DNA from: Calycina herbarum
Lineage: Eukaryota > Ascomycota > Leotiomycetes > Helotiales > Pezizellaceae
Direction of reading: 5' to 3'
Assembly (NCBI GenBank): GCA_001414485.1
Contig: LLEY01000104.1
Coordinates: 124,001 to 188,000 of the forward strand
DNA length: 64,000 bases
The notes beneath the pieces were generated by a model. That model had not been told where the DNA came from, did no database searches, and saw nothing but the letters and a program-made list of their open reading frames with translations. Below, piece by piece: positions 4,571 through 62,120 of the stretch. Position 1 is the stretch's first letter; each line of letters begins with the position of its first letter. The translations under genes and the position numbers were made by a program.

Positions 4571-5335
4571 GAGACAGCCACATCGCGGATGATGCAACCA
4601 TGGAAGAAGATCACTACGCATCGGATAACATGAATTCTCCAATTAAGTTTAAACACCAAACACCAAACAAAATCACCGTTTTGATACCTGAGTAACTCTC
4701 CTATTGGAACTTGGTTGGTCATGTGGGCCCCACCCACACTCTCAAAAAGATTCTTCATACTTTGAATTAACACAAAGTACGGCATCGTGGGTTGTTGCGC
4801 TTCAGAGACTAAGTTTCGTTAGACGGTATAATTCCCCCTTGAGCTATTCGTTTCACGTCTGGTAATATAGCTGGTTGCCTTATAATAGATCGCAAGTCTC
4901 TACTTCTACTTAAATTTTCTTTTTTGCTTTTTTTATAGCTTGATATAGTGTCTGTTGTGGCTGTTTGAAGTTTTTTGGCTTAATTTAGGCGGTGGTGTTT
5001 TGCACACCTGAGGCATATTTTGCGACGTCATCGAGGCTCGCGATATTTAGGCGGTGGGAGCAGTTGCCATTACTGCGTAGTAGAGTAGAGTAGAGTAGGG
5101 GTGGGTACCTACTCTACTCTACTCATTTCCCACACTGTTTGCACTTGGTGAATGAAGCATACCAAGTCACATACTCGTTTGTTGCCTCATGCATTTTGAA
5201 CTCCCTTGATTTCAGCTTATACTAGGACCATTTAAATCAATCCCTGATCCCAACGGCTAAGAAAAGCATAGTGTCCTGCTAGTTTCACAAACCCAGCCCA
5301 GACAGTTCCAGAAGATGTAAACCATGACTCGTAAC
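4571..5335. other. Intergenic spacer with a GAGTA hairpin
   Basis: No supported gene. At about 5078-5125 a (TAGAG)n microsatellite is followed at once by its reverse complement, giving a possible hairpin with an 8-nt loop. The motif TTTAGGCGGTGG occurs twice (about 4987 and 5047). Confidence 0.4.
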
Positions 5336-8300
5336 TCAAATCTCATCTCCTTGATTACTTTGTTGCTAGGATTATCAGGAGTAGCATATTCGTCATCTGA
5401 TATCTTGCAAGTCATACTTACATCGAAAGGAATTTCCTCACTAGCCATCCCAAAGTTGCTGCCTCCAGGACTTCGTTGCTTCTTAAACTAAATTAGCATA
5501 GAAAGCTTTTAGCATTGGAAAGTTAAGCCACACTACAACCAAGGGTTTAGGGAACTCTTCACCATCGTTGCTTTTGGAGTTTCGTTTCTGAAGTCATTAG
5601 TATAAAGCGTTTTAGTTTCTGGATCTCTGGTCTTACTTCCGAGGGCGAGGAAATCTCATCACTTTCTGTTTCGAATTTCCAGTCCGGGATGTCCTCGACT
5701 AGTGGACCACGCTGGTTCTCGAGCAAAATCAGTATAAGTGTCCCTCCAGCTTCTAGAACCCAAGACTTACCACAACAAAAGGTTGGGGAATTGCATCGCC
5801 CTCGGTGTTCTAAACAGGTCAACCAAATTATCCAAATCTAGAAACAGAACTTACTTTAGCGGAACCCTCCATTTCAACAAGGCTCGCACTTCGTTCCTTC
5901 TGAAAGTTCCAATCAGTATGGTGTTTCTAATTGTCAGGAATTGAGCTATACTACAATAGAGAGTTGGGGAATTTCCTCGTTCCGTATGTTCTAGATTGTT
6001 TAGCGAGATCTTCAGATTTAGGAACAGACTTTACTTGAACATTATCCCCCATTGCAACAGGGCTTGCACTTCGTTTCTTCTGAAAGTATCAGTATAAATC
6101 ATACCAACTTTCATGGTTTTACTCTTACTTCAGAGCGTCGGGTGGGAATTTCGTCATCTAGTTGCTGCTAAACAAACGTTAGCACAACTTCTATACATAT
6201 AGTTGTTGGTTTTACAAATTGTAGCAAGCGCATTAATTCTTCTTCTGGATCCCATCTCTGAAATAATTATCACCATTATTACTACATTGGGTTTTCGGAT
6301 CTCACTTCGGGGTCTGGGACAGGGCCTTCTTCGCGCGGTAGATCAGAGAACATAGATGGGGACTGAAATGTCAGCATGAGTTCTTTACGTATACTTGTGA
6401 GCCACACCTTGGGGAGCCTCGCCTCTATTTGAGAACTTCGTTTTTCCTAGTTTGTTTTTAGCAGGTTTCATTCAAATTTTGCAAGTCAGATATCACTTCA
6501 CAAGGTATCTCATCGTCGAGAGTGCCAGCATGCTAAGACAGTCAGCACAACGTTCGAAATCAATCCAAGGTAAGACCCATACATAATTGGGCATCACATC
6601 GGCGCTAGGATCTCGCTGTTTCTGAATTCGTTAGTCTGGATTCCTTCAGATTTGTTACCTAAATCTTACGAGAGAGAGTATTTCATCGGCACCGAGAACT
6701 TGGTTCTGGAAAGAAGTTAGCACAGCTTTTATATATCAGTTTATGAAATCTACCACCAAAGGCATATCGCCAGTTTCATCAACTCGCGGCTCCTGGAGGG
6801 CTTAGTGGGCGAAGCTTCACTCATTTTGGCAGTTAAAACTTACCGCTGAAGGTATCTCATCGCCTTGAAACCCAACAACCTATTTGTGTAAGCAAGACTT
6901 TTGTTTATAGTGATGAAAGCTATACCAAGTTAGGCATCGTATCAGCTCTGGAACTTTGTTGTTCCTAGATTCATTAGTATTGAGGTTTTCCGTGGACCTG
7001 GCAGTGAAATCTCACCACTGAAGAAGGTATTTCATCACTAAAACTGCCAGCATCCTAAGAATCTCAGCACAACTTCCGAAAATTAAAGTAAAGACCATAT
7101 CAAGTTAGGCATCTCAATAACTCTAGCCTTTATTTGTTCCTGAAACTATCAGCATGGAGACCTGTCACGGAAATACTCCCAAGTTTGAGTGGGTATGTTC
7201 AACCTGATTGAATACATCCCCGATATTCTCATTTTATACGTCAAAAGCCTGCTTCTAGTTAGTGAGGTTCCTTGGTTCTTCCGCATTCAAGCCATACCCC
7301 ATCTCTTTCTGTCTTGGGCAATTCTCGCTTTTGCATCTGGAGAAATTAGTCTAGAACAGAGGCTGTGTGGGCAATCCTTACGACAGCTGGTATCTCATCC
7401 TCATTGAAACTGTCCGAGGCCAACGCGGGGTTAGCTTAATTTCCCGGTTGTTTCATAGTCAGCTTACCAAGGACATTATTTCATCCTCGAGTCTGTTAAA
7501 TCTTCCTTTTTCTCGTCGCTGGTATTGTCAGCAAAGCAAATTCTCAAGGTATTTCTTCAAGGATATTCTGACGTCAAGCGGCAATGCATTACTTTGACCC
7601 AATTGCTGCTGAATTTCAGCTTTTAGCGTGAGAGCTTCCAGCTTTAAAACTTGGAACTTACAAGGTTCGCCATGGGAATCTCGTCGCCGGATTGAGCTTG
7701 TTGCTGGTATCGGTCAGTATAATTAAGCGAAAAGGTATGACAATAGAGTCTCACTTGGAGGGGCATTGGATCACTTTGTCGGGTTTTCCGAGAGATACAG
7801 ATGTCGGAGATTTCCCTACGTTTATTTGTACATCTTGAAATAATAGGAATTTTGTCGGCAGCTTCAGATTGCGCCTAGTGTCATGAGCAAATGTTCAAGC
7901 TTTTCCCTGCGGAGATAACCTTACCAGTCCATCAGGCATCAAATCGGTTCCACTAGCTTTTTGCTAAAGTGTAAATGTTAGAGCAAACCCCATTTATTTG
8001 TTCTTGATTCTTACACTTTGAGGGATTTCATCGCCAGATGCACCTGCTGCTGCGCCCTGTCTCATTTTTTAGCATATTTTATAGCTCTGTATACCGAGAG
8101 CATCTCATCTTACATCCATATTGATATCGTCGGCTATTTGCTAAAGTAAAGATGTCAGAGTGTCAAACTCTACGATTTTGAAATAGCGCTTACTGTCAGA
8201 AATCAGGTGATTTGGGGGCCAAATCTTGGTGCTTAATAAGCCCTTGGAACATATTTAGACTGTTTGTCCGTATGGATAACTTAGACTCGTAATCATCGAA

Positions 8301-9176
8301 TCCATCAATACACAGATTAAAACCATCACTTTTATCCCCCATTCTTGACACTTACACCTTGAGGGATTTCATCACTTGTCGAGGCAGGCTGTTGGTCTCG
8401 TTAACAAATATTGTGGCAAGATATGTTTCAAAAGCTCTTCTTACTATGTCAAGCATTTCCTCTGTTGACTTGCAACAGACGAGTATTGATGGGATGCTCG
8501 TCACCTGCCTGCACCGGCCATTAGCAAATTTATAAGCTTCGTCCGTCAATGCCATCTTACAAGGGGTGGGTCGCCTTGCTCCTAAGAAAATTGTTAGACT
8601 GAAACCGTTTCGATACAATGCTCGAAACTTACAATCTCCGAGATTTCGTCACCGAAAGCAGCTTGATTCTAGGTTTCTTAGAAAGTTTATCTGTATCTAT
8701 GTTGAATTCTTACTGCGAAGGGCATTACATTGCTTCGGACAAGTTGGGGCTAAAATACGAATATCAGACAGACGAAATTCCAAGATCGTTTTTGGGACTA
8801 ACAAGACTAGGGATTTCATCGTCTCCCATATTGAATTGCTAATTTCATCAGCAAAGAGATCTTCAACCTTCATTGATTGAAGAAGTCAACTCACACCAAG
8901 TGGCATTGCCTCGGTGTTGCCGTTTTGGTTCCAAAATTCAAGGTTAAATTAACCAATTATTCAGATCCTAAGAAGGGTATCATATAGTATCAGATATTTC
9001 ATCGCCTGCGGCAGCTCTAGTCTATTTTCGTTAGCAACAAGCTTGAGTTTGAGCATCTATGTCGGCATTACATTCCCCGGGGTACCAACTGACGAGACTA
9101 GATCATCGTTTGGTTTTGCGATAGGAGCAGCTACTGCAACAGTAGCTAAAAGTGAGGCGAAAATTATAACGCGCAT
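5336..9176 (-). CDS. Micro-exon gene 1: secreted repeat protein of about 41 tiny exons (probably decaying)
   Basis: The ATG at 9176 opens a 35-codon exon (9072-9176) with signal peptide MRVIIFASLLATVAVAAPI. Then follow about 40 exons, nearly all 21-60 nt and phase 0, separated by introns mostly of 45-60 nt with GTAAGN-like donors, CTAAC/CTGAC branch sites and TAG/CAG acceptors. Examples are 8803-8838 (QFNMGDDEIPSL), 8633-8668, 8356-8388, 7925-7963 (QKASGTDLMPDGL), 7662-7703, 7573-7608, 7016-7054, 6926-6964, 6844-6879, 6754-6792, 6670-6705, 6583-6621, 6497-6532, 6408-6446, 6129-6167, 6035-6079, 5955-5990, 5855-5899, 5771-5809, 5637-5717 and 5422-5481. The last exon is 5336-5365 (QQSNQGDEI, then TGA). 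The full reading is about 550 residues, acidic and Pro-containing, without recognisable domains. Several 5'-half exons are damaged: donor GT to AT at 8985 and 7100, acceptor lost before 8930 and before about 7790, donor lost at 7838, possible TAA at 7234-7236. The 19 exons from 7054 to the end are intact. Family unknown; no transcript support. Confidence 0.75.
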
Positions 9177-9281
9177 TTTAGAAGTTTCGTTAAAGTGGTG
9201 ATGGAGTAGTTTGGATTTTTGAGTCGTTACTGAAGACAGTACTCCGATTTGGATTTTATTCAAGGAGCAGTAAGTTGAAGA

Positions 9282-9286
9282 CTTAT
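9282..9286 (-). promoter_or_regulatory. TATA box of micro-exon gene 1, split by Copia insertion
   Basis: CTTAT here and at 20422-20426 is the Copia target-site duplication. Read on the minus strand with Copia removed, it gives TGCTGTATAAGTCTT, about 110 bp before the ATG at 9176. The identical 15 bases occur 112 bp before the ATG of the paralogue at 24458. The insertion therefore cut the gene's TATA region and moved the upstream promoter 11 kb away. Confidence 0.65.
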
Positions 9287-9436
9287 TGTCGGCATAATAA
9301 TGAGCGAGTAGCGCTTCACGTGACCTTCTCGCTTAAGGTCTATTTAAGTAGACAGAGCAGCTAACTTTGCTCTGTATGCACGAACGATAATATACTCTTT
9401 TTGCATCATGCTATTGGCTACCAAGTCATACTAACA
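9287..9436 (+). repeat. Copia 5' LTR
   Basis: 150 bp from TGTCGGCATAATAATGAGCG to …CTAACA. It differs from the 3' LTR by G/T in AGTAGCGC, T/C in GGCTACC and T/C in CTAACA. It is preceded by CTTAT. Confidence 0.9.
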
Positions 9437-11908
9437 CTGATCAGTGTCGCGCGCGTAGATCAGAAACACTGACTATACGTATCGCGGTTCTCGGAATCGT
9501 AAGCTTACGTACAGTTACGTAGTTGTGCAAAGTAGACTCCTCTTCTTGGAAGAGACTCCTTCTACTGGTTATACCCCCGACAATACCACTGCAAACTCTT
9601 AGACTTGCAGTACAGTTATAACAACCTTGCAACCTCTCCGAATTGCAACACCCTTACAACAACCTTGCAACCTCTTCGAATTGCAATACAACCTTATAAC
9701 CTTGTAACCTCTTCGACTTGTAATATAACCAATACAACCTTGCAACCTCTTCGACTTGTAGTACCACCCTACTTACAACCGCTCTTACAACTGCTCTTGA
9801 ACCCTTTAGAACGACTATTGTATAAAGACAATTCACCCGATTTTGATGACTCATAAGCATTAAAAGAGTAACTCACATAAAAACAAATTATAAAATAAGA
9901 TTATAACGTACTATTCACCTAGTATAAGATAAGATATCATCTACTACTTTAAGCACCAATAACTTCGTCGACATTACCAACACTATGGCACCACTACTAT
10001 AGTGGGTTGAAGATAAGGAAGCCACGGCCTATATAAATATAAAGTTAGAGGAATACGATGTTAATAGAATAGACGACGATTATCTATAGGAGATATATCT
10101 TATAGACTTTGACAAATAGCCTGAATCGAAGTTCATAAACATAGGAAGAAACACCCTTATCAAGATGTGTAAGCTACTATGTAATAGAGGCGTGTAGGTA
10201 GAGACAGATAGACATAAGGCGATTATGTTAAAGGCACTTTATAATACGTCTCGAGAACTTACAAAGCCTAAATTGCCGATCCAGGAATTGAGAGATCAAG
10301 TATATAAATCGCAAACTCAATTACGAGAGATGGCTACGAGATACAAGTATATTAAAGAATACCCTAACCGATTCCCTAAGCTTCTTCTAGGGTACTAGAA
10401 CCCTACTACTTTAAACGCCTTTATAAATCCTTCTACTTCGAATACTACTTCAACCGCTTTTGTAAGCAATATTCCTATCCCTGTAACTCTACCAGCAGTA
10501 GCTCTTACAACTCCACCGGCAGCTTTTGTAACCCAGAATGCTCTTACAAGCCAACTAGCTATAGGCAACTATCCTGGCAATAGCTAGATAAGCAACCCTG
10601 CCTTCGCACTCGGCAACCTTATGAAGTTATATTCAGATAAACAAAAGTACGGCAGCAAGGGAGACAACTTCAAGCTTAAGTCAAGGATATTCAAGGATAT
10701 ATATAACCGTTGTAGTATACTACCTTCAGTATATAATCTTGCCTTCCCGATTATGCTTAAGGGTTAGGTATTAAACCACTTTTATACTAGTATCTTTAAG
10801 GAAGGAACTAATCAATTATACAACGTTCTTTCTACAGCTATCTAATTATACTTTAAGGATAAGCTATACTTAAGAGGTCAATCCTCTAAGTAGAATCGTA
10901 TCACATTCTTATAAACCAAAGCTAAGCTGGAATATTTAGAAAAGACACCTAGCTAGTGCTTTAAGAAGATGCTATCTAAATTAGAAGAACTTCGTTATAG
11001 ACTTCCTAAGGACATGTAAAGCGATAGATAATTAGCTAATAAGCTACTTATAGCATATAAGGAAGCACTAGAATACCAAAGTGTATACTTAACCTTACTA
11101 TAAAACTCGTTACTTTAAAGCTCTATTCGTAATTACGAAGTAAGCTATAATACCTCAAATGCCGAAACTCTGATAACCTTACAGCTAGTCTAATAAACTT
11201 AGCACAAAATCACGCTTTTAGTAGATTTATTCCACCGCTAATTCTAGATGCTACGTCCTACGAATTTATAGAAGAAGTGTTTATATCTATAGCTAAGAAG
11301 TACGTATAGGATCACTTCTTTAGAGTTATAATCGATACCGGCATAGGAGGGAAGTCAAGTGTAGGATACGAGCAATACCTAGTATATGCTAAACACGTCT
11401 AGAATATCCCTATTAATAAAAGCACTAAAGGCTAGATTAGTATATAATTTAGTAAAGGTTATACTGCCTTCTTAGGATCGATTATAATTAGTATACTAAT
11501 CAGCTATATAGAATTCTATATTATATATTTAGATATACTATTTATTATATATATTAATAATATAGACCGTTTATACGTCTCGCTTAATAACCTCTAGAAC
11601 GTCCTTATTTAGGAAGACAGAAAAGGTTAGGAAGTAGAACGTTTTAGAATTATACGACGATTTAGACACTCTTTTCTACTCTAGAATAAGGCTGTATATA
11701 ACCTCGTATAAGAATCCCTATATTACCTTATAGATGTCGATATTAGGCGCCTTTATAAGCGCTTTAGTCACCTATCTATACTATGCTTATAGTGTGTACT
11801 CGAGCGTGCCGGTTACGACGTCGAGTAAGGTATTCTACAACACCTTACTAAATATTATAAGTATTGCTAAAAGCACGGAAAGTCACCTAGTCGATTTAAA
11901 TTTACACT
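9437..11908 (+). pseudogene. Copia gag region and 5' internal part
   Basis: From about 9984 a frame reads through many stops as a gag-like protein, including segments such as LYSDKQKYGSKGDNFKLKSR (near 10.63 kb) and YNLAFPIMLKG. The region before it (9.57-9.80 kb) is a run of related AACCTTGCAACCTCTTCGA-like units, an imperfect leader repeat of about 45-55 bp. Stops are mostly TAG. The part before the nested Gypsy element ends at its target duplication. Confidence 0.6.
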
Positions 11909-11913
11909 TTATA

Positions 11914-12154
11914 TATCAGGACTTGTAGCAAATGCTGATGAATTAAACTACAGAGGTGTCTATATATAAGAAGATTCGATTGTCCTTTCTAAGCTAGAGT
12001 CCTTGCTAACTTATATACTCAGTTAGCTTTTTCTAGAGGGTTCTGCCAAGGGTACTCTCGAAGGTTCTGTTACGTCTATGCGTTGCTAAGCGAGGTTACG
12101 TGAATGCGTCGCTGGAGTACTCCGAGACTTATTCCACGGGTGTAACCCTTGACA
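11914..12154 (-). repeat. Gypsy 3' LTR
   Basis: Copy of 17174-17414. On the minus strand it starts TGTCAAGGGTTACACCC. The differences between the copies are mostly transitions of RIP type. Confidence 0.85.
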
Positions 12155-12159
12155 TTACC

Positions 12160-15100
12160 CCCCTTCCTGCTCTTGAAGGTAGGTGTCTAGGGCTACTGTG
12201 TCCTCTAACTTAGTAGTAGGTTCCCATGTTGGGTTTGCGTATCCTGTCTATTTAACCTTATACTCGAGTCGAGTACGAGAGCCTTTCCCTAAGAGCTTCT
12301 TTTGCTGTTAACCTAGTATTCTTTCAACTTACTATTCTATAGTATCGTCTACTAATATTATAGGTGGTTGATCATCGTCTGTAATTTAACTAGGCAGCGG
12401 GTCTATAGCTGCTGGCCTTAATAAGTCTATATTAAAGACATTATAGATACTAGGCAGGGTGTCTAGCCTATATATAGACGGGCTAATAACCTCGATAACT
12501 ATAAACTTGGCGGATCGAGCGTCTAGTTTCTTACTAGCCCTGTCTGTCTATATATTCCGTAAGCTTAAGTAAACCTTGTCTCTAACCTTATACGTAGGAG
12601 CGGTATTCTGTGAACGATTTACTTAAGTCTCCTAGTCTTGTTATACCCTTACTATTAATGATTATGCCTATTCTATAATAGCCTTAATCTTTGCTACTAT
12701 TACTTCGCCCTTTTGAATTAGTGTTTTTGTATTTATAGGTACTACTACGTCTGTTAAGGGGTCGATAGTCTATAACGGATAGCCGTAGCTGAGTTAGAAG
12801 GGGCTTACACCCGTTGATGTTAAATCCCGTCTGTTAAAAGCTAGCTATACTACTGGCAGCCAGTCGGCCTAGTCGTCCTAAGCTATATTAATCTACTGTC
12901 GTAGAAGCGTCTCGACTTTAGCATTTGCCTGTTCCGTTAACCTGTTAGTTTATAGATAGAAGGCTATAGAGATCCGTTGTTTAATCCGTAAGAAGTTACA
13001 AAGCGTCTTCTATGCTTGTCTAATGAATTACAGGCCCCTATCAGACACTATTGCTCTTGGTAGTCTATGTAAGCTATAGTGTGTAGTAATAAATAAGCGA
13101 GCAAATTCCTCTGATGATATAGTCGAGTTATAGGCCGTAAGGAGCACCCCTTTGCCTAAACGGTCCGTGAACACTGCTATTATATTAGAGCCTTTACTTA
13201 TAGGTAGTGGTCTAATAAAGTCGATAGAGATCTCCTGCTATTACTACTTAGGAATTGGTAATAGACGAAGTAGGCCTTGTTTACGATCCCTCTAGACCTT
13301 AGTACGTCTGTAAACTCCATAGTTACAGATAAACTGCTTAACTATAGTCTATAGGTTTAGCTAGAAGAACTCCCTTAAGACTATTATAATTGTCCTATTC
13401 TTACTAGGATAGCCTGTAAGTGTAGAATCATAGAGTTCCTATATAATTGTAGTCTGTAGCAGCTTATAGTCGGGGACCCATAGTCTACCCCTAAACTATA
13501 AATCACCGTTCTTATTAACTAAGTAGTTAGAGATAGAGACTTTGACTGGAGAAGCGAGGTCTACTAGAAACACCCTATCTCCTTAGTAGACAGTATCTAT
13601 AAGACGCCTGAAGTCCTTATCCTATACCTTTCCCTCTTCCTAGAGGTTCTGTAGTTAGTCTATAAACGCTTACTACGTCGCTACGTCGCTTACTTAATTC
13701 CTCCCGTTTACTAACACTAGTGCTAGCTGTATAGTATTTCCTTAAATCATTCTGTCTAGAATCAGTTATACTATCCTATAATTAAGGCGTTTATCTCCCT
13801 TCTCTAGGAGGTCCTAGTCCCTCCTTGTCAGTACATCTAGCAGTCCTCTCTCTTTACCTAGGCGGTATTAGATAATTAGGTTAAACTTACTAAGTATTAA
13901 CTGCTACTACATTTGTCTTTTAGACAGTTTACGAACCGTTGTAAAGTACTTAAGATTCTTATAATCCGTAAGTACTATAAACTGCCTAACACTTTTTAAC
14001 TCCGCTTCCTATTCCTTAAGGCAACGAATAATAGCTAACAACTCCTTATCATATATTAGGTAATTATATTCAGTAGGTACGTGTTTCTTTAAGAAGAAGG
14101 CTACGAGCCGTAAGACGCTATTCTTTACTTAAGAGAGCACGCCTCCTAAGCAATATCCGGAGAAGTCTATCTCTAGGACCGTCTTATGATCTAGGTTAAA
14201 CTAAGCTAGTACTAGGGCCTCTGTAAAGGCCTGCTTTAACTGTTCGAAGGCTCCATTCGCTTCGTCTGTCTATTAGAAGGATATATCCTTTTTAACGAGT
14301 CTATAAAGAGGAGCTATAATCTGTAAAAAGTCTTTAATAAACCGTCGATAGAAATTCGCAAATCCTAGGAAGCTAAGGACGCCTTTTGCCTTTATTAGTG
14401 CTTTCTAATCTATAATAGCCTATATTTTAGCTAGGTCTATCTATAAACCTTTCCCTACTTCTATAATAAACCTAAGGTACTTTATAGACTATACTTCAAA
14501 TTCGTACTTATTAATATCAAGCTATAGCCTAGTATCTTAAAGCTTTTGTATTACTTTATAGACATGCTCGTAGTACTAGTTATAGGTGCTGTCTATAAAG
14601 ACTAAGACATCGTCGACATATACTAAGACAAAGTCGTCTAAGAACTCTTAAAACATATGATTAATATACCACTAGAAAGTGCTAGGAGCATTTACAAGCT
14701 CAAAAGGGGTAATAAGCTATTTAAAAAGCCTAAAGCGTGTCTAGAAAGCCGTTTTCCACTTATCTCCCTCCTTAATTCGTATCTTATAAAACGTAGTAAT
14801 AACATCTATTTTTATAAACTACTTTGCTTTTCCGATCTAGTTAAGTGTTTCTTAGATTAAGAGTAATAGATAGCAGTCCTTATAGGTTAACTTATTCAGT
14901 ACCCAGTAGTTACAACAGAACCGTAGGCTCTCTCCTAGCTTCTGTACAAAGAGTACTAGCGCAGCTGCTAGAGAGTTGCTTACTCGAATGAATTCCTTAT
15001 CTAGTAGCTCTGTTAGGGTTTTACAGAGCACTAACAGCTCGTCCCGTGACATATTATAGAGTGGCCCCTATGGGACTGTCTCCTTAGATTCGCTGTCCGT

Positions 15101-16900
15101 CTGTAAAAGCTTAATACCATAATTAATTCCTTATTAGTATACTAGTAACTTGTTTGTTTCTTTTCTATTAAAAGCTAGGTAGAATTCTAGACCGATCTAG
15201 CTAGGCAGCTTTGTCCGCGGGTCTATATACTTCTTCTCTACTAACGCTTTACTAATGTCCGCGAGGCTGGCTAAGAAAACTTATAGCTTACGTTTACGAT
15301 CTATAAGAAAGTAGAAGACAGCCGCGCTTACTTGCTTATAGGAGTAAGACTTTTCTAGCTTATTATAAACTTCTAACCTAGAGTCTTAGAAGAGCAAGCA
15401 TCCCTTAGCAGCGTTAAGTAAAGCTCGCTCTCTCCTTAACTAAGATTTTCCTAGAATCATTTTATAGCCCTCGATCTTAGAGACTACGTAAGTATAAACC
15501 CGTTTCTGCTAGTAGCCTCTAATATCTATGCTAAAAGATACTACTTAGGATATAGCATCCTCTAATACTCCTTCTACTAACTGTAAATGCCTTAGTATAA
15601 TTTGTACGTAAGAGAGCTAATAACGACGGATAAAACAGTCTAAAACAATTCTATAGACTAAACACTCTAAATCTACTAAGGCTTATAAAGTAGCTACTCT
15701 ATTTACTAAAGCCGATATAAGAAGAGGTTTTTCGTCTATATATTCCTACTTAAAATGTCTCTAAGTGTCTATTACTAACAACTCCCTTCGTCGCCCCTGC
15801 CTACGCTTTCTAATAGGAGCCACTAGTTTTCCGAATCCGAGGAGACATCACTGTCTTCTTCTTCTAATTCTAGTACTACTTCCTTAACCTCTGCCTTCTG
15901 TTTACAGACCGAATCCGCTGTTATAGGTCGCCTTAGTAGTCTATATAGACATTCTTAAACAAAATAACTAGTAGCTCTACAGCGAAGACAGCGACTAGTA
16001 TAAGCACGGTTGCTTCGTTCTTCCTAGGACACCTATTTAGCACGCTTAGTACTAGTTGTTAAGACTTTAGCAGGTGCCGGTTCCTAATCTATACCCTCTA
16101 CGGATGCCTTACAAGTGACTTTCGGTCTGTTAGCGATATTACCGCTTGTTACCTACTATGTAGTATCCGTCGAGCGTTTCTAAGAGGTCTATGGTATTTC
16201 TAGGAGAGTCTAGGCCCTAGATCTTAATATTCGAGCTTTATAAGCCCTTAAGCAGTCGTCCGTTTCTTTAATAATAGAGCAGTAAGACTCGAAGTTAGGT
16301 TAAGAAGGAACTATAATCATCGCCTTAACTAACTCGTTACTAAGGATTCGGTTAAGAGACACCTTCTTTGCGTCGTCTAGCTAAGATCCTCCTCTAGACT
16401 CTATAAGCAGGGCTTGCCATTTCGTAAAGACCTCTAGGAATGGTCTTAAGCTCTAGCGGAAGGATTCTAGCTTTCGTTACACTCTTTCCTTAGCTTACGA
16501 GTCTCTAAACATAAACTCTACTCGATCTAAGAAATCACTGCTATTGGCTAGCTCTGGCTTACTCTATTCCCGTACCTATACTTCCATTCTACAGAGCGCC
16601 TTGCCCTGTAGGGATCTGTTAAGTGCCTAAAACTTAACGTATTTAGTACATCTATAGTAGTCGACTTCGATTTTGGCTCGTGCTTATTATAACTAAGCTT
16701 CTAGCTTATCCGAGTCTCCGTAGAATTCCAATAGTAGAGGAAGAGATTTCCTAGGTTTATTATCGTTGTAGACCATCTGTAAGTAAGCTTCCTTATCCTT
16801 CTTTTACTCGTTCATAATCCGTAGACAATCGTCCTCTTAAGCAGATATTAACTGATTCTACTACTCTTAAACATACTATAGGAACCAGGCAGGTAGCTGA
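12160..16900 (-). pseudogene. Gypsy gag-pol remnant (RT, RNase H, integrase)
   Basis: On the minus strand, 14852-15052 translates to MSRDELLVLCKTLTELLDKE followed by FIRVSNSLAAALVLFVQKLG, the start of a Gypsy reverse transcriptase palm domain. Around 13.0-13.2 kb the same strand gives an integrase core (SIDFIRPLPISKG … FTDRLGKG … IVSDRG) with the first two Asp of the DDE triad. RNase H lies between the two. The 15.8-16.9 kb part should be gag. Stop codons, nearly all TAG and TAA, are frequent throughout. Confidence 0.8.
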
Positions 16901-16934
16901 TTTAGTATACCGCCTTCTTATAGTTCTCCTATTA

Positions 16935-17160
16935 TCCGTGAGTTCTATAAATGCCGTGAAATAGCCTGTAAGTTCTAGTGTTGCCGTAAAGGCCCGCTAT
17001 GTTCCAGTATTACTAAAATAGCCTAATATATTCTAGTGTTACCGTAAAGGCCCTTAAGTTCCAGTGTTGCCGTAAAAGCCCGATGTGTTCCAGTATTACT
17101 AAAATAGCCTAATATATTCCAGTACTGCCAAAATAGCCTAATATGTTCTAGTGTTAAGGA
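16935..17160 (-). repeat. Tandem repeat in the Gypsy leader
   Basis: About eight imperfect units of roughly 29 bp, each around GTTCCAGTGTTGCCGTAAAG and often ending GGCCC or AGCC, lie between the 5' LTR and the presumed gag start. C/T and G/A differences between units fit RIP. Confidence 0.7.
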
Positions 17161-17173
17161 GAATCGAATCTAA

Positions 17174-17414
17174 TATTAGGACTTATAGCAAATGCTAATG
17201 AATTAAACTATAGAGGTGTCTATATATAAGAAGATTCGATTATCCTTTCTAAGCCAGAGTCCTTGCTAACTTATATACTCAGTTAGCTTTTTCTAGAGGG
17301 TTCTACCAAGGGTACTCTCGAAGGTTCTGTTACGTCTATGCGTTGCCAAGCGAGGTCACGTGAATGCGTCGCTGGAGTACTCCGAGACTTATTCCACGGG
17401 TATAACCCTTAACA
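17174..17414 (-). repeat. Gypsy 5' LTR
   Basis: 241 bp, pair of 11914-12154, followed by TTATA. Confidence 0.85.
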
Positions 17415-17419
17415 TTATA

Positions 17420-20145
17420 ACGATATTAAGTTTAATTATAATATAATCATAGACGTCTTCTTTTTAGAAGGAAAGCTAGTATTATATATTATAGATTAAA
17501 GAACTCGATATTAATCTAGAGACTTCCTACTAGACATAAGTATAAAGAGTGCCTAGAAGACCTTTTAAAAGTGTTAGATTAATACCTACTTAGGACCTCC
17601 TAACTATGTTACTATAGACGCTAGAAAGAACTTTGTTATAAAGGAGTTTAAGAGGTATATAAATTCAATAGAAATTAAGGTTAAAACTATACTAGTAAAA
17701 GTATACAACTCTATTAGTATAGTAGAACGATACTATAGACTAATCTGCTATATTTACTTAATTATCCAGGAATAACAACCTAGTCTTATAAAGGCCTCCG
17801 CTCTCTAAATAGCTTTTAAAGCTATTAACGACATAGTAGAACCTAATAGTTTAGTACCTACTTTACTTATATATAGCGCTTATCCTAGAATAGCTAAAAG
17901 TAATACTCTCTTATAATCGATATCTTAGAGATCTAAGACCTATATAAAGGCTACTAAAGAAGCACGTAAATTACTTACAAAGTGTTAAATTATAGATACT
18001 CTTAATACCTGGAACGGTTCGTTACCTAGTAGAATTAAGGACTTACTACTAAATGCTAATATACTCGTCTAGCGTAAGTATTAAAAATCCTAGACCGGTC
18101 CCTTCTTATTATAAGGAATCGAAAATGAAGACTATATCGTATTACTACTAAGTAGTCTTATAAGATTTAGATCTATAGTAGTAAAGCTATACTTCGAAGA
18201 AATCTTTAAAGACTCTAGAATAGCACCGGCAGTTAAAGAGATTTCTAGAACGGCACCGTCGTTTAAGACAATACTATAATCTTATAGAGATAGAATAGAC
18301 AATAGAACTGAGCCTTAAGAGAAGCCTTAATCGCGCCTATAAACTCGATACTAACTTTACTAGACATAGGTATAATAAGATAACCTTACCGATCTTCTAG
18401 AATCGACAATAGAACTAGTCTAGAAGCGTAGATAAGGAAGACTACGAAAGCACCTAAGACTACTAAATAAGCCTTTCGAGATCTTATTCTAAGAGATAGA
18501 TACTTTTATTAATAATACTAAGGACTACGTTACTATCGAAGATATTAAGACTTTCCTTTTATCTATTAAAGAAGAACATAATATTAAAGTATTTATAGCT
18601 ACTAATAGTATAATATACGTAGAATTATACTAGAAGGAAATTAGTAGATTAACTAATCGAGGCGTCTTTAAGATTATTACCTAAGATAACCTACCTTCTA
18701 ATACTAGAATTTTTAGATTACGGTTTATAGATAACATTAAATTTAAAGGTATAGTACTTGCTTTTATAAAGTCAAGACTAGTTATCTAAGTATATAATAA
18801 TAATAGAAAGTCCTTAGTCCTTACCTAGGCCCCTATAATCTAAAGAGTAAGCTAAAGAATCATCCTTATACTTATAGTAGTATACCCGGATTTACGAGTT
18901 TATATTCAAGATATTATATAAGTATATACCTAGTTACTTATAGAACTAAATCGAAAGTTCTTTATACGCCTACTAAAAGGATACCCTTAATAGGAGGATA
19001 TATTCTTTGAAGTAATTAAGCTATTATATAGTATTCTAGAGGCTAGAAACTACTAGTTTATAACGTACTATAAACACTATACTACAAAGCTTATAATAGA
19101 ACAATCCACTTTCGACCCCTATCTTTTATATACTAAACGATTAAATAGACCTTTTAGAGTAGTAGGACTTTAAACTAATAATACTCTTATACTTATAAAC
19201 GATGCTTTTATAGCTAAGGAAGAAAGTGCTATTAAGAAGCTAGATTTATATTAAAGGATAGATAAGAACTTACTATTACCTATCTAATCTAGTTTAATAG
19301 AGGGCTAATTAGTAAGTATATAGATAGCTCATTTACGCTTACCTAGGATTACGCAAAGCACTTAAAATTAGTATAAAAGGTGCTAGCGGAGATATCTAAT
19401 ACTAAAGGCACTTCCTGTATAGTATCCACCAAGGATTAATATGTTACTCAGCGTGCTCGTAGAGCATATTTAGCAACAGTGTCCTAGCTAGAAGCAGCAT
19501 TTGATTTGTCATATACTGCTTAGACAACCGATCTATAAGAAGTCGATATTAGCCTTCTTAATAAGCGAATTTAATAGCAAATCGACAATGCTATAAGAGG
19601 GCTTAAATACCTCAAATTAGACTAAAACTCGCTTAAATTATACGCCTTTACAGATGGCTCTTTTACGAACAACAAGGACTTATCGTCGCAAATCAGCTAC
19701 GTTATAGTACTAGTAGATAAGGACGGTAATGCTAATATTTTACATTAGTCTTCCACCAAGTATAAAAGAGTTACTCATAGCGTTTTAGCCTCAGAACTGT
19801 ATATAATAAGCTCTGGATTTGACACTGCCGCTTCTATTAAATTAACCCTAGAAAGCATCTTAGGCTTTAAGGTCCTGCTTATTATATATACCGATTCGAA
19901 GTCCATTTACGAATATATAGCTAAATTAGGCACCACCAAGGAGAAGCGCTTAATAATTGACGTCATATACTTACGAGAAGCATATAAGTTAAGAGAGATC
20001 GACGAAATTAAGTAGATCGATGGCAAGAGTAATCCAGCAGATGCTATGACTAAGAAGGATTGTTACAACGCTCTACAAAAGCTAATCGATACTAGTAAGC
20101 TAGATATTAAGCTTATAGAATAGGTAGAACAGAATAAGGGATAAT
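17420..20145 (+). pseudogene. Copia integrase/RT/RNase H remnant
   Basis: Plus-strand translation with many stops gives RT-like text near 18.75-19.2 kb (VIYPDLRVYIQDI, YPLIGGYI) and a clear Copia RNase H at 19.64-20.1 kb: FTDGSFTNNKDLSSQISYVI, then ASELYIISSGFD, IYTDSKSIYEYI and NPADAMTKK. This is the 3' end of Copia pol. It stops about 130 bp before the right LTR. Confidence 0.75.
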
Positions 20146-24346: not shown

Positions 24347-24457
24347 TCTTTAAGTCTACCTCTGCTTCACAATCGAAGCGAAAATCAAAATAATGTCTTC
24401 ACTCTCGAATCAACACGATACAAACTGCTCCATGATCACCTAAGCGAGATTTAAACA

Positions 24458-26032
24458 ATGGGCTTCACAATTCTCGCCTCGTTCTTGGTTACTCTCGTAG
24501 TCGCAGCGCCCATCTCAGGTCCAGATACGTCCATCTCAGATCCAGAGACTGGTTGGGTCTCGCCAATCAAGGTCCGACAAAATGATGAAATACCCGCGAT
24601 GGTAAGAATTGACCCCCGCCTTCTCAAGCTCTTTTCAAACTAATGCAACAGTGCGTGCAGGAATTCCGTGCGCACAGGCCAGAACCGGCCAAGCCACACC
24701 AAAATCACCACATTTTTACTAACTTCTCCTCTTAATTATAGAAGAACGCTCTATTAGATTTATATAAAACTAAGTATTAAGAGTAATATAACCTAATACT
24801 TAAACCTCCATAGTTTTTAATTAGGCTAGAGTAACTTAAAGTATATGCTATAATAATCTCTTGGAGACTTTGTTAGTAAAATATTAGCTTTTAAGATTAT
24901 ATACGTAGCTTAGGAGTTATAACTAAGTGGTTGGTTAGGAATGTGTTCTTCTTATGAAATTCTACGTCTATAATCGTTGTTAGGATATATCACCCTATTT
25001 ATTTACTAAGTTATAAAGCTATAAAGAGGGTGACTTTTGGTGTGTTTTCGGCTAAATTTAGAGGGTGCGCACGGAATTCCTGCAACCCCTGTTAATGCGT
25101 CCAGAAACAACGCGATGAAGAGGAAAGGAACTTTGTTGTAAGATTCGAGATTTGTACATGATCGGAAACGTTTCTTCTAACAGGTTCAGAATGCAAGCAT
25201 GGACGACGATGACTTGCCAGTTGTAAGAATTGAATTACTCTCAAATCTTCGAAAGCATTTATACTGATGACTCCAGAAGAATCGAAATGCCAAATCTGAC
25301 GAAATGCAGATTTTGGTAGGGCCATCTCGTGATTCTTAAAAGTTGTGCTGACGTTCCTAGCAAGCTGGCTCTTTAGACTATGAAATACCCTCTGTAAGGT
25401 GGCTCCTAGAACTGATAAGTTTTTTGTTTGACTAACGCCTCCAGAAACAACCCCGAGAAACATCCAAGAAAGAAAGAGACGGGGTACAATACAAATACCT
25501 AGAACGTGGAAGTTATACTAACTCACCTCAGGCATTTGACGTGTCAACAGTGCATATTGAAGCAATCCCCCAGCATTTTGTAACAAATCCCGATTCCCCC
25601 GAATTCTCGATTCGAAGCACTGACGTCTTCAGAAACGACAAGATTGGAGTAAAGTCGACTGTGACTCCGTCGCAGTAAATCTTCATCCCCATGTTTCTCG
25701 ACACTATACTAATTCTCTCAGCCGAGTACCGCTCCCCAAGTAAGTTTTACCCATACATCAACTCGGAAAATCCATTAACATCTTCAGGATCTGGCGGGCG
25801 CAGATTGGAGCAAAAGTTCCATGGTAGGAAGACTCAAACCCCAATTTTACAGAGTTTTCATACTAACTTATCTCAAGGAAAGAAGGGACGGACTAGAGCC
25901 CTACAGTTTGAATTTCAGCGATGATGCGATTGATTTCGATGTACGTTTCACTTGAAACTTCTTTAAAATCGAAGGATGATGCTAATACTGGTCACTATCT
26001 AGGAGGAAGGAGTAAGAAACCCGGGCAAATAA
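24458..26032 (+). CDS. Micro-exon gene 2: secreted repeat protein, 12 exons, 187 aa
   Basis: Exons: 24458-24601, 25105-25137, 25184-25222, 25277-25315, 25361-25393, 25445-25483, 25532-25579, 25633-25674, 25722-25739, 25788-25823, 25878-25940, 26003-26032. All 11 introns are phase 0 and GT-AG, and ten of them are 45-62 nt with CTAAC/CTGAT-type branch sites. The sum is 564 nt, ending in TAA. The first exon gives signal peptide MGFTILASFLVTLVVAAPI and ends QNDEIPAM. Later exons encode KQRDEEERNFV, VQNASMDDDDLPV, KNRNAKSDEMQIL, QAGSLDYEIPS, KQPRETSKKERDG and so on. It is a paralogue of the gene at 5336-9176: same signal peptide pattern, same A/B exon alternation, KQPRETSKKERDG against MQKRELPKTERDG, a 30-nt last exon in both, and a shared TATA region. 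Intron 1 is 503 nt only because a 446-bp MITE sits in it; without it the intron is 51 nt. All splice sites are intact, so it could be functional. Function is unknown: secreted peptide precursor or effector are guesses. Confidence 0.8.
24647..25092. mobile_element. MITE inside intron 1 of micro-exon gene 2
   Basis: Perfect 20-bp inverted repeats TGCAGGAATTCCGTGCGCAC (24656-24675) and its complement (25065-25084) lie inside imperfect outer ends ACAG…CTGT. The element is flanked by the direct repeat TAATGC (24641-24646 and 25093-25098). The interior is AT-rich, without a gene. It inserted between the branch site CTAAT and the acceptor of the 51-nt ancestral intron, and it duplicated TAATGC. Confidence 0.8.
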
Positions 26033-27910
26033 TCTCTGGGCCATGTTTTTCGAAACCCTCGTCATCGAACATCGTGATCATAACGTGGGATCAAGAAAAG
26101 AGGGAGGTGTACTGTTTTTTACAGGTGGATGAGATTTAAGTTCACACTCCTGGTTTGGGATTTTGTTGAATTCTCTGTACTGGATTCATGAAATAAATAA
26201 GATAGTGTATTTCCTGATGAGCTAGGAGAGGGGATACGTCTGGTACATTTTACAACACGCGTCTTTAGTGTAAGCCTCTCAGGCCTCGTCCTTCGTACAC
26301 CCTATTAGCCTAATAGTTTAGAACAATGAAATCAATTGACAAGACTTACAAGAAGATTTCCTCAAGTCAATATTCCTTTTTTCAAATTACTATCTGCTAG
26401 TTTACTAAATTCGCTTAGTTGTCCCAGACCTTTTGGAATGGTGGCAAGGACTCTTATAATAACTCGACAACAAAACACTTAAAGTTTCTACTTCAATTGA
26501 TGTTTTTTTATATTTTTATAACCGTTTTATGTTATACCTGTTTTTCAGTAAAGTCTTATAGTCCACCACCAGCTCGGAGATATTTTACTCGGTCGAAAAT
26601 ACTCTTCTTACTCTCGGAGATATTCTTTCTGGTTTAAGTGAGATATTTCGGAGTTAAGTTATCACGAAGATATTTCTACTTAGTTTTCTTCTACTCAGAC
26701 TTATTACTCGGACTTATTACTCGCATATTTTACTCTAGAAACCTGTTATTCTTAGACTTATTATTTAGATGAATTATTCTCGGAGATATTGCTCGGAGAT
26801 AGTGCTCGGAGATATTTGACACGGAGTAGTTAAGTTGATTTCTCGGAAATACTTCTCTGAGATATATTTCCTTCGGAGATATTACCTGCTCAGTCATTTT
26901 CTGGGAGACATTATTCTCAGATTTACACTTGAATCTCTTCACAGTCGTAGAATCAGATTTCCAAAAGTTTATACGAGTACTCGTACCCTAACAACAATGC
27001 TCTCAAACAACAATCCATCGAGAGCGCGGTATTTTAGTGGACCTCCCTGAAGCTAGGCTCGCGGTGGGCAACGAATACAAACTCAACGCAAACCAAGTAA
27101 AAACTTTACACAGCTGGTCTTCATCCTGCGCATATACTCCCGTTTTTCTTGCCTTTTTGCGATTTTTCTTTCAGGCAGCGGGTTTTCATGGGGTCGCTAA
27201 CCACTGCTACTAATCTTATCCACCGCGAGCGCAAGAGTCCCGACATCTGAATAATATATAATCAAGAGACAATATTCCAAAAGAGCTAGGACAATCAAGT
27301 TAATCCCGCAGAGTAGTGTAGGATCATTAGAATTAATAAACATCTAGTCTTTCTTGCACTTTCAGTGCAATATATTTTCTCAGGGGTGCGAGAAGCGATG
27401 GCAGGGTCTCTTACCCCTATGGCTTTAGGCTCTTACAGGGAGGTGGAAAATCAGAAGCCTTACAGCGCACTTCATATGTGATGAAAACTCCTTGTCACAG
27501 TCATAGCATCAATGGCCGTGATCTGGTCAATTTTACGATGAAAACAATTCATTTCAATTCACTAATCATTGCATGGGACTTGAAGGTTTGAGAATTTTTT
27601 GGTGATTCCATTTTACATGATGTACATGAGTGTTTGTTTGGTTAGAAGATGCCAACGAGTCTGCCTTGACAAGACTCCATACATAGCAAGGTTGATAGCT
27701 AGAGCTAGTGTGTAGTATACCATGAAAGCAATGAGGTATCTTGGTTCGTTTGTGGTTGGTTTGATTGTGGTTAAAAAGCAAGGGTAGTTTTTCGAGCAAA
27801 TGAAGTGAAGACGTATCGTCGCATCGTAGTTACTGGGACTCTTAATCCATCTGAGTGGCAGTAACCTCGCATACCAAATCCGATTTCAGATTAACAGTAG
27901 GAGGTTGCAA
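26033..27910. other. Intergenic region with GGAGATATT repeats
   Basis: No gene supported. From about 26572 to 26890 the motif CTCGGAGATATT recurs about eight times with variations and irregular spacing of 20-60 bp, including three copies in 40 bp at 26776-26815. A short inverted pair GCTCGCGGTGG/CCACCGCGAGC lies at about 27058 and 27224. The last part is the 3' flank of the Rec114-like gene. Confidence 0.45.
26572..26890 (+). repeat. Degenerate short repeat, GGAGATATT-type
   Basis: Repeated TCGGAGATATT words, some with GAAATACT or GAGATAGT variants, in a T-rich stretch without coding frame. Too irregular for a clean satellite. Confidence 0.5.
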
Positions 27911-50893: not shown

Positions 50894-52866
50894 ACTTTAG
50901 ATCCTCTAATAGTAATACCGACTATTCTAGGCGCTTAGAGAACTTAGAGAAGTTCTCTAAGAACGAATAGAAGAATTCTCTATTTCTTAACATTTCTACA
51001 AAGATATAAGTGAAGAACTAAACTAAACTACCTATTTAAAGCTTAAATCGCAACTGACTATATCTTCTTATTAACTATAGAGAGCGGTGATTATATATAA
51101 AGTATAGATAATTATAATAATATTAAAAATAACACTTTTAGATAATTATCTCTTACTTTACGCTTATATAATATAATATATAACTTTGAGCTAATTAGAG
51201 AGCTCTATTTCGTAGACTTTTATTAACTTTATAAGTAACGTGTTTTATAAGCGAGTCGTCTACTTTTTCAACCTAGTATTATTATAATATAAAATACTTA
51301 ATACTATACAAAGTTATTATTACTATAGAAGCTATCTAGTATTCTTTAGAACTTTCGCTATCTTTTATATCTAATATTTCTATCTAATAAGTACGAGAAT
51401 TATACCTAGTTTTACTATAACAGCTATAGTACCTATCTATACGAACTCTCTTCCTAGACTCTTTACCTTGTTTCTAGCTACTATTTTCCTTAGATATAAT
51501 TAAATCAGCTACGTTACCTACTATTAATATCTCTTAACTCTTAATATACTTTCTCTTATAACTTTTACACTTAGTTATAGTCTTAGTTATTATACGAAGA
51601 CTAGTGATTCTCTTACGTATTAATACTATATTATATATTACCCTAGTTAAGCCTTTTTCGAGTTAATTAAGAGACTGAATAATAGAACTAGGTAACGAGT
51701 CTTAATATCTTTGAATCCGATCTTAAATAAGCGTTAATTAAGCTATTATTTCGTATACGTTACTTAGTGTTTTAGGTGTTTATAGAGTGTCTTCTAGTAT
51801 TATTAGTATTAGCGTATAAAGTCTTAAATCAAGCTTTAATAATATAGCTTCTAGGCTATATAGGACTAGCCTAGCCTCTTTAAAACTCGCGTAGATATTA
51901 TCCTTTATAAACGCTTTATAAAAAGCTGCTTTAAATACTAGAAGAAAGGTTTCTTTAGTAATATAATTAATATAATTCTATGCTAAGCCTAATATCTTAG
52001 CTCTATATACTCGCTTTAATAGCGAGAAGTAGACTATATTAAGCAGCTATAGTAGGTATAATAAGTATAGAGATATATAGAGAGTAATAATATTTAAGTC
52101 TTTATAGAGTTACTAGAATTTAAGCGAGTTATAGCTTTTATAACTATTAACAATTTATAAACGATATCCTTCTATACTTTATACCTTTATATACTTGTTA
52201 AAATACTTTAACTATATAACTCTAAGCTTATTATTTATCTAGCTGTTATTATTAACCTTAATTACTTAATTATATAGTATATATATATCTTAGTATTAGG
52301 TAGAAATAAGTACTTTGCCTACGAATATAATAAATAGCAGGATTGTCTATCCTATTACGTTAACTCTCTAAATAACTATAATCTACTCGCGATTACCTAG
52401 CTAAACTTGCTTTCGCTTCCTACGTGTTTCTAAGCTTATAATAATAAGTTAGAATAAAATAACTTCTATTATAAAGCTACTTTTGTTAAAGTTATAAATA
52501 TTCTTATCTTAAATACTATATTTCTCTTTAATAGACTATATAAGCGTAAACTATAAGCTAATAACTCGCGGATCCTTAGTTAAAGCTCGCTAACGATTAT
52601 ATAAATAACTCTATCGAGTTTTAAGCTTAGGTATACGTTTTATAAAGTTATCCGGCTAGTTCCTACCTATAGGCTTTCCGTCGCGCTCTCTTAGTAGATT
52701 ATTAGCTATATCTTATACTATATCTCTTATAGGCGAAAACTCTTACGAATCTAACTTTAATATATATCTAACTATTACCTTCTTCTCTAGCTTTATAAGC
52801 TTTTTCGAATTAGGCTAGTAATCGCGTCGTAAGAGCTTTCTAGCGCGTCGATTAGAGAGAGTCTTT
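50894..52866. other. AT-rich, RIP-degraded repeat DNA, unclassified
   Basis: Very high TA, few CA or TG dinucleotides, no open frames. It is probably an old transposon, but no domain could be read on either strand. Confidence 0.5.
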
Positions 52867-53313
52867 TATAACGAAACTTAAACGAACTAAACAAAGATAA
52901 CTAAGTCTCGAAGGTTGGTATATAGATAAGAAGTATAGATACGCCGGGTTTTTTACTTAGAAGTGAACTCGTTACTTATATTAAAGATGTTAAATAAGAT
53001 AATAAGATTAATAACTAAAGTTAAGTACGAAGCTCTTATTTAATAGTAGACGTGCTAGTATATATAGAATCTTCTATACTACCTAGATCCTTATATAAGC
53101 CTAGATCCCTAGATCCTTTTAGATCCTTTAAGAGATCTAAGGGGATCTATTACGTAACTTACTAACGGTTATCTAATAGTAAGATCTTAGAATACCTAAA
53201 TGTCTTTATATTACTAATTCTCTTTTATATTACCTTCTATTTTCTAAATATTATACCTTATCTTATTAGAGCGCTGTCTAGACTACTTATTATATATAAC
53301 GTGATTTATAACA
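52867..53313 (-). repeat. Gypsy LTR 1
   Basis: 447 bp from TATAACGAAACTTAAACGAA to …TATAACA. The outer parts match LTRs 2 and 3, but the middle (about 53065-53150, GATCC-rich) differs from theirs. Confidence 0.75.
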
Positions 53314-59300: not shown

Positions 59301-59693
59301 TCCTCTAAGTATAGCTAAGCCTATTCTAATACTAATCCTCTAAGGTAGGAGATAGTAAAGATAGTTTATAAGTTATAATTACCTTTAAACTTATTAGAAT
59401 TAAAGTTAAAGTAGATGTTTATTTAGAGAAGAAATAATTTAAGTTCCTTTCGCTTCTTATAATATATATCTAGTATCTTAACTTTAATTGGTTTAAGTGC
59501 TTCGACCTTATAGAGCTTAGAGGCGTCTAGTATACTAATATTATCGTCGTTCCTAGTTAACTATATACTAGTAGGTGTTCTTCTAGTTATACTTCTAGAT
59601 ATTCCTATAACGTTAACTCGACTAGTATTTAAGCTAGTTATTATAGGAGTTACTAGAGCTATAGCGACTAAACTTCTAAGTAGGTACTTAAAG
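53314..59693 (-). pseudogene. Gypsy A gag-pol remnant
   Basis: RT core near 56.2 kb on the minus strand. Gag should lie near 58.4-59.6 kb and integrase near 54.3-55.3 kb by position. Stops are dense. At 53.58-53.9 kb a Lys/Glu-rich text (KLDKEKEEAIAKIL … KEVEKKEKEEKEREE) reads on the opposite (plus) strand; it recurs in copies B and C. Confidence 0.65.
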
Positions 59694-60156
59694 TATAATA
59701 AAACTTAAATAAACTAAATAAAGATAACTAAGTCTTAAAGGTTAGTATATAGATAAGAAGTATAGATGTACTAGGTTGTTTACTTAGAAGTAAACTCGTT
59801 ACTTATATTAAAGATATTAAATAAGATAATAAGATTAATAACTAAAGTTAAGTACGAAGCTCCTATCTAATAGCAGACGTGCTAGTCTTATATAGAACCT
59901 TCGTTTCTAAGTACGTCGCTTACATCGCTCGTGTCGCTCGCGTCGCTTACGATTAAGGCGATCAGAGCGATATAGGCGATCACGTTACGTAACCCTACGT
60001 AACTTCTAATATTACTATAATAGTAAGATCCTGAAATCCCTAATGTCCTCTATATTACTGATTTCCTCCTATGTTACTTTCCTTTCCTAGATATTATACC
60101 TTATTCTATTAGAACGCCGTCTAAACTACTTACTACGTATACCGTGATTCGTAACA
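59694..60156 (-). repeat. Gypsy LTR 2
   Basis: 463 bp, from TATAATAAAACTT to GTAACA. Same length as LTR 3 and collinear with it, including the CGTCGCTTAC-rich middle that LTR 1 lacks. Confidence 0.8.
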
Positions 60157-61657: not shown

Positions 61658-62120
61658 TATAACGAAACTTAAACGAACTAAACAAAGATAACTAAGTCTT
61701 AAAAGTTAGTATATAGATAAGAAGTATAGATACGCTAAGTTGTTTACTTAGAAGTAAACTTATTACTTATATTAAAGATGTTAAATAAGATAATAAGATT
61801 AATAACTAAAGTTAAGTACGAAGCTTCTATCTAATAGTAGACGTGCTAGTCTTATATAGAACCTTCGTTCCTAAGTACGTTGCTTATATCGCTTATATTA
61901 CTCGCGTCGCTTACGATTAAGGCAATTAGAGCGATATAGGCGATTACGTTATATAACCTTATATAACTTCTAATATTACTATAATAGTAAGATCCTAAAA
62001 TCTCTAATATCTTCTATATTACTAATTTCCTCCTATATTACTTTCCTTTCCTAGATATTATACCTTATCTTATTAGAACGCTATCTAGACTACTTACTAT
62101 ATATACTATAATTCGTAATA
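61658..62120 (-). repeat. Gypsy LTR 3
   Basis: 463 bp, close to LTR 2, with RIP-type transitions. Confidence 0.8.

Follow-up and report, generated by a model that had tools for sequence, protein, structure and literature searches.

Two candidate micro-exon genes for putatively secreted repeat proteins in the fungus Calycina herbarum

Introduction

Micro-exon gene (MEG) families have been described from parasitic flatworms and from aphids and, as far as the accounts cited here go, they belong in both to the interface with a host. Schistosome MEGs have a signal peptide, exons of 6-81 bp that are mostly multiples of three ('symmetrical') and few conserved motifs, and an enrichment of transposon insertions has been reported for them (PMC10526429, PMC4350168); their introns are given as 0.1-5 kb long, most of their exons as 15 bp and their exon number as 10-20 per gene. 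Here we describe two loci, copy A and copy B, in a stretch of 64,000 nucleotides (nt) from the ascomycete Calycina herbarum (GenBank assembly GCA_001414485.1, contig LLEY01000104.1, positions 124,001 to 188,000, forward strand; the window below), which would appear to work like such a micro-exon gene and which we liken to the MEGs by architecture, not by sequence.

Copies A and B share with the schistosome genes small exons, mostly of a length divisible by three (3n), and an N-terminus that by eye resembles a signal peptide, but differ from them in introns of about 50 nt where 0.1-5 kb is described, in exons of about 36 nt, of which there are up to 39, and in many copies of a repeat unit; an earlier sequence-only reading of copy A had offered the schistosome likeness as an analogy only, and it should be kept as such. 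Aphid bicycle genes encode putative effectors that evolve rapidly, their numerous small internal exons being in phase 2, and one Megacycle gene has more than 100 micro-exons (PMC9168663). To the extent that they are described there, A and B resemble them in being fast-evolving and in having many small exons of the same phase, although the internal exons of A and B are in phase 0. Bicycle units carry a cysteine motif, whereas the units of A and B have few cysteines. As regards descent from MEG or bicycle families, the likeness would seem to be one of architecture, and neither the long introns of the former nor the phase 2 of the latter was found.

Among fungi, SP7-like effectors of arbuscular mycorrhizal species have a signal peptide and imperfect hydrophilic repeats, each with a conserved end island; the account names one conserved intron before the first repeat and no exon-per-repeat structure, and reports the family only in Glomeromycotina (PMC11333574). 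A and B are likewise fungal, with a signal-peptide-like start and imperfect hydrophilic repeats, a likeness of description only, and both copies have an intron after exon 1, as they do after nearly all later units. Single micro-exons are described in filamentous ascomycetes, in Xlr2 of Trichoderma (PMC11121469) and CYP621A of Fusarium (PMC12940212), as one micro-exon in an otherwise ordinary gene, as opposed to the many of A and B. The former paper (2024) states that functional microexons were previously undescribed in filamentous fungi, and its introduction that fungal microexons are known to a limited extent and were tested in Schizosaccharomyces pombe (PMC11121469). Our literature searches (open-licence PMC papers, titles and abstract openings of those listed) found no fungal gene built of many micro-exons, in agreement with the sequence-only reading, to which no described fungal family of this design was known.

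Results

Copy A is a chain of small exons, mostly in phase 0

The curated model of copy A starts at an ATG at 9176 and closes with a 30-nt exon whose TGA ends at 5336, exactly where the sequence-only reading had placed the gene. Its parts are as follows.

5336..9176, minus strand: copy A, micro-exon gene with 39 curated exons, start codon at 9176 and stop codon ending at 5336
9072..9176, minus strand: exon 1, 105 nt, signal-peptide-like N-terminus (judged by eye)
8895..9021, minus strand: exons 2 and 3, separated by a damaged intron whose donor reads AT and whose acceptor reads GG
8356..8838, minus strand: exons 4-9, all 0 mod 3; exon 8 (60 nt) resembles two fused units (by eye)
8194..8350, minus strand: transposon-like element of 157 bp with inverted ends TGTCA...TGACA, in the intron after exon 9
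7755..8140, minus strand: exons 10-13; exon 13 (120 nt) resembles two units plus an in-frame former intron (by eye)
7298..7703, minus strand: exons 14-18; exon 17 (7409-7382, 28 nt) is out of frame
7101..7248, minus strand: exons 19-20; in-frame stop in exon 19, AT donor at exon 20
5336..7054, minus strand: exons 21-39, unbroken phase-0 chain up to the stop codon

The earlier description of about 41 exons, nearly all under 61 nt, was right as to size (35 of 39 are of 60 nt or less) and two too high in number, a difference that may stem from the insertion at 8350-8194 and from exons 8, 13 and 36, which by eye now resemble fused units. Phase 0, which had been claimed for every readable junction, prevails, with 36 of the 37 internal exons at 0 mod 3, but the claim was slightly too strong, given that exon 17 measures 28 nt, that exon 19 contains an in-frame stop and that an AT...GG intron and an AT donor occur. 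The introns have a median length of 51 nt with residues mod 3 of 15/10/13, and only one of the 38 exceeds 100 nt (215 nt, carrying the insertion); GT is found at 36 of 38, and AG at 37 of 38 if exon 38 starts at 5487, otherwise at 36. The longest stop-to-stop frames are 98 amino acids (aa) on the minus and 114 aa on the plus strand, so the earlier upper limit of about 90 codons was nearly right. A frame-constrained model from ATG to stop gave no stop-free path, which is how the lesions of copy A were found. In exon 13 (7755-7874) two units seem to be joined via an in-frame, stop-free stretch, possibly a case of intron exonisation. Upstream of copy A, at 9590-9772, lies a 38-bp tandem repeat of 4.9 copies.

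Copy B is a diverged paralog

The second locus, which the sequence-only reading had pointed to at 24400-26100, proved to be a paralog that has diverged, is built in the same way and shows no visible lesions.

24458..26139, plus strand: copy B, the paralogous gene, with 13 exons; all 11 internal exons 0 mod 3 and all 12 introns GT-AG
24458..24601, plus strand: exon 1, signal-peptide-like, C-terminal residues NDEIPAM (by eye)
24647..25093, plus strand: repeated element of 447 bp with inverted ends, in intron 1 (ends and target duplication by eye)
25105..26011, plus strand: exons 2-12
26125..26139, plus strand: terminal exon (VDEI stop), counterpart of the copy A terminal exon (QGDEI stop)

Eleven of its 13 curated exons are of 60 nt or less, and its introns have a median of 53 nt, two of the 12 exceeding 100 nt (503 nt with the insertion, and 113 nt). 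The two copies lie head to head with about 15 kb between them. An alignment of 136 columns at 70% identity (expect value E 1.7e-11) spans exon 1 and the 5' flank, further matches join inner exons (A27/B5, A18/B6, A21/B5 and A32/B4; E from 3e-8 to 2e-4), and a weak one crosses the stop codon (E 0.008). These matches establish a gene family with at least two members.

The chain is not a product of chance

The chain was assessed with a finder that is blind to the reading frame, rates donor, branch-site and acceptor signals and allows exons of up to 160 nt, and compared with 1000 dinucleotide shuffles each of A and B; an exon was called good if it was 0 mod 3 and without a stop. In copy A (5300-9200) the finder placed 26 introns, and 20 of the 25 enclosed exons were 0 mod 3, 19 of them stop-free, with a chain score of 202.8 against a shuffle maximum of 87.8 and 19 good exons against a shuffle maximum of 4. 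The chain of copy B (25061-26160, without exon 1) scored 81.7 with nine good exons out of nine, the shuffle maxima being 33.6 and 3. No shuffle of A or of B, among 1000 for each, came up to the real sequence in chain score or in the count of good exons, and the earlier statement that such a chain is not expected by chance is thereby upheld. With exons limited to 90 nt the chains were shorter (four good of six exons in A, four of four in B; maximum of two in 200 shuffles each).

Pooled over both loci, 29 of 34 exons of the frame-blind chains were 0 mod 3 (binomial p 6e-10), and in the curated models 47 of 48 internal exons, against 21 of 50 introns. In 40 of the 50 introns a YTRAY branch site precedes the acceptor by no more than 40 nt, at a median distance of 9 nt. 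When the window and 50 kb of the contig were scanned on either strand as 102 strand-segments, each 4.1 kb long and advanced by 2 kb, runs of at least four consecutive good exons occurred in six, all overlapping A or B, and no other segment exceeded two.

Repeat units and encoded protein

A typical exon of about 36 nt corresponds to one unit of about 12 aa, and many exons encode 12-13 residues. The units have two kinds of core, D-E-I-P and x-(M/L)-P, usually about two residues before the exon end and its splice donor; by pattern, the DEIP type is present in 17 and the x-MP type in 11 of 39 exons. The two types tend to alternate: 16 of 19 adjacent labelled pairs differ in core type, and two DEIP exons stand side by side in 2 places where 7.0 would be expected, a count as low in 0.1% of 20000 permutations. 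Within copy A, exons 32-33 and 34-35, 20-21 and 22-23, and 20-21 and 26-27 align along with their introns, for which duplication of a two-exon, two-intron unit would be the simplest history.

Exon 1 resembles a signal peptide in both copies, as judged by eye. After residue 19, 69% of the residues are polar or charged. Without exons 17 and 19, copy A has five cysteines, and copy B has one; dibasic sites, again counted in A without two of its exons, number 11 in A and three in B and are irregular rather than placed between regular repeats.

Insertions in the introns

The stretch 8350-8194, which the exon chain of the sequence-only reading spans, is the 157-bp transposon-like insertion, and its interpretation as decayed exons was rejected. 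The element is flanked by a 5-bp target duplication, GTAAG, which is the splice donor, hence a donor on both sides, and it has at least 40 further matches in the genome at 92-99% identity among the matches listed. At 19 other loci, inspected by eye, a 5-bp target duplication was seen at 11 and none at eight. Five other copies share the right flank ctcccccatgcgtaat or a sequence one base off, and the element may therefore also occur within a longer repeat.

The 447-bp element in copy B has a 5-bp duplication, AATGC, over the branch site, and a branch-like TTAAT remains before the acceptor (by eye); the genome holds 31 further matches or match pieces, one of them nearly full-length at 93%. Both insertions are thus in introns and, by virtue of the duplicated GTAAG in A and AATGC/TTAAT in B, left usable splice signals behind.

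Exons diverge at about the pace of introns

In the ten A-B local hits at E<=1, identity was 76% in exon columns (150/198) and 78% in non-coding columns (219/282), the latter including 127 columns of 5' and 3' flank and leaving, by subtraction, 130/155 for introns alone; in 12 hits within A the values were 239/301 for exon and 191/247 for non-coding columns, and all these hits, being local, favour similar pieces. When exons of the same type were compared over their whole length, mean identity came to 0.50 and 0.48, against 0.43 after shuffling; for their introns it came to 0.53 and 0.54, against 0.45 after shuffling. A codon-aware alignment of ten exon pairs (147 codon pairs) gave proportions of synonymous and non-synonymous differences, pS and pN, of 0.44 and 0.32, and a pooled ratio of the corresponding rates, dN/dS, of 0.63. 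Coding constraint is present but weak. From these comparisons it follows that the frame and the core are kept while the remaining sequence changes about as fast as introns.

Genomic setting and search for relatives

At 9200-20000 and 52000-64000 the window is AT-rich with ratios like those of repeat-induced point mutation (RIP; TpA/ApT 1.5-2.0, CpA+TpG over ApC+GpT 0.12-0.66), unlike both gene bodies, which are neither AT-rich nor RIP-like. Ten open reading frames between 0.5 and 48 kb were scanned; five have ordinary domains (ARID, Zn2Cys6, FSH1, alcohol dehydrogenase, APP1) and five have no match. The APP1 neighbour has 735 protein-database matches, and among the 120 listed its best organism-named relative is from Drepanopeziza brunnea (71% identity). 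D. brunnea is a Leotiomycete, which is compatible with the link to Leotiomycetes made in the sequence-only reading but does not prove it.

Two patterns of D-E-I-P plus donor had 10 and 35 matches genome-wide, 5 and 7 of them within the two copies, and of 61 loci tested none outside A and B had more than three good exons, four pattern matches lying outside the test. The 15-base pattern of the terminal exon is exact only at A and B in 68.8 Mb (2 of 32 matches at one mismatch or less). Searched against the genome, a copy A DNA probe found itself and 40 copies of the insertion (the best 40 of 59 candidates scored), which may have crowded out other matches, whereas a copy B DNA probe matched itself alone, and exon 1 as DNA (from A) and as protein (from B) gave self-matches only. 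Since A and B never matched each other in these genome searches, diverged members would be missed by them. In Pfam, copy B had no match, and a piece of copy A matched only SRP72, far below its cut-off (14.7 bits vs 25).

Discussion

We are highly confident that A and B represent a real, spliced gene family. The explanation that we consider best overall, and fairly probable, is that they are paralogs, each coding for a secreted repeat protein that is largely hydrophilic and assembled from frame-neutral modules. Adding, skipping or losing a phase-0 module of 3n length leaves the frame of the rest intact, and for this reason such a gene would grow and shrink by duplication and loss of modules of exon plus intron, and exon inclusion would vary the number, kind and order of units between copies, between alleles and perhaps by alternative splicing. 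The protein would be hydrophilic and probably disordered, showing many DEIP and xMP cores, and may act outside the cell by multivalent display of the acidic core. By analogy with fast-evolving secreted micro-exon families, use at an interface with a host or a neighbouring organism appears the most likely, and on balance we lean towards regarding A and B as genes for variable repeat proteins that face such a host or neighbour.

Several observations weigh against this explanation. In 11 of 39 exons neither core is found by pattern, and with the types assigned by hand, a lower donor strength of x-MP than of DEIP exons did not reach significance (p 0.055). In plain nucleotide alignments, A-B and within A, differences are spread about evenly over the three codon positions (34/39/36), and the bootstrap interval of pN-pS, -0.24 to -0.009, barely excludes neutrality, the exon pairs being non-independent. 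In the protein database, no relative of copy B or of exons 21-39 of copy A was found at E<=10, a negative that says little because gene callers would hardly predict exons of 12 aa. Copy A has its lesions (an AT...GG intron after exon 2, an exon 17 of 28 nt, an in-frame stop within exon 19 and AT as the donor at exon 20), and secretion, which we deem likely, is something that we infer, as are alternative splicing and function.

A chance origin of the chain in AT-rich or repeat DNA might be argued from the shortness of splice motifs and from the long, poor chains that AT-rich DNA elsewhere in the window does yield (22 exons, one of them good, at 60001 on the plus strand); with no shuffle matching either copy, runs of good exons confined to A and B among the 102 strand-segments, and a paralog with matching exons, we rejected this idea and regard it as extremely improbable. 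A different proposal is that A and B are precursors of ribosomally made peptides released by kexin, one peptide per exon, as in the dikaritin/ustiloxin and KEP types. Precursors of the dikaritin type have genes with UstYa domains beside them and kexin sites between regular repeats. The signal-peptide-like start, the imperfect repeats and the basic residues with which some exons begin (KKRSASP, EKRSS, KRNSKS) would suit such a precursor, but the dibasic sites are few and irregular, and the 71 listed matches to the UstYa domain in the genome all lie off the contig that carries A and B, which speaks against a dikaritin cluster; we consider this proposal improbable.

The alternative that we take most seriously concerns copy A and is compatible with our explanation of the family: copy A may be a decaying pseudogene, so that only the 13-exon copy B works and the 39-exon design is a relic. 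The two splice-site lesions, the in-frame stop and the out-of-frame exon are what decay would leave, there is an insertion in an intron, and the adjoining 9.2-20 kb looks RIP-mutated; copy B, in turn, has none of these types of lesion. Against decay stand the 19 consecutive clean phase-0 exons from 21 to 39, the absence of a RIP signature from the gene body (TpA/ApT 0.83) and the unusual exon lengths of 21, 27, 60 and 120 nt, which still preserve the frame. Moreover, the neighbours of each damaged exon are in phase 0, and splicing around the lesions would thus keep the frame. We see pseudogene decay of copy A as a substantial possibility, although one to which we give somewhat less than even weight.

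Returning to two working genes for secreted repeat proteins, we speculate, more tentatively, that they constitute a convergent fungal micro-exon system in which one locus gives rise, by exon skipping, to a combinatorial pool of secreted repeat proteins, cassettes being gained, lost or bypassed and transposons absorbed without cost to the frame, with target duplications re-creating splice signals. If our explanation is true, one repeat per phase-0 exon in a fungus would be an independent origin of the solution found in flatworms and aphids, here in organisms in which gene removal and RNA sequencing are easy. Dozens of exons of about 36 nt with introns of about 50 nt between them would also offer a natural test of the spliceosome. 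Standard fungal annotation would miss this design; fungal gene sets may then lack a class of secreted proteins, and related families may be present, unseen, in other fungi.

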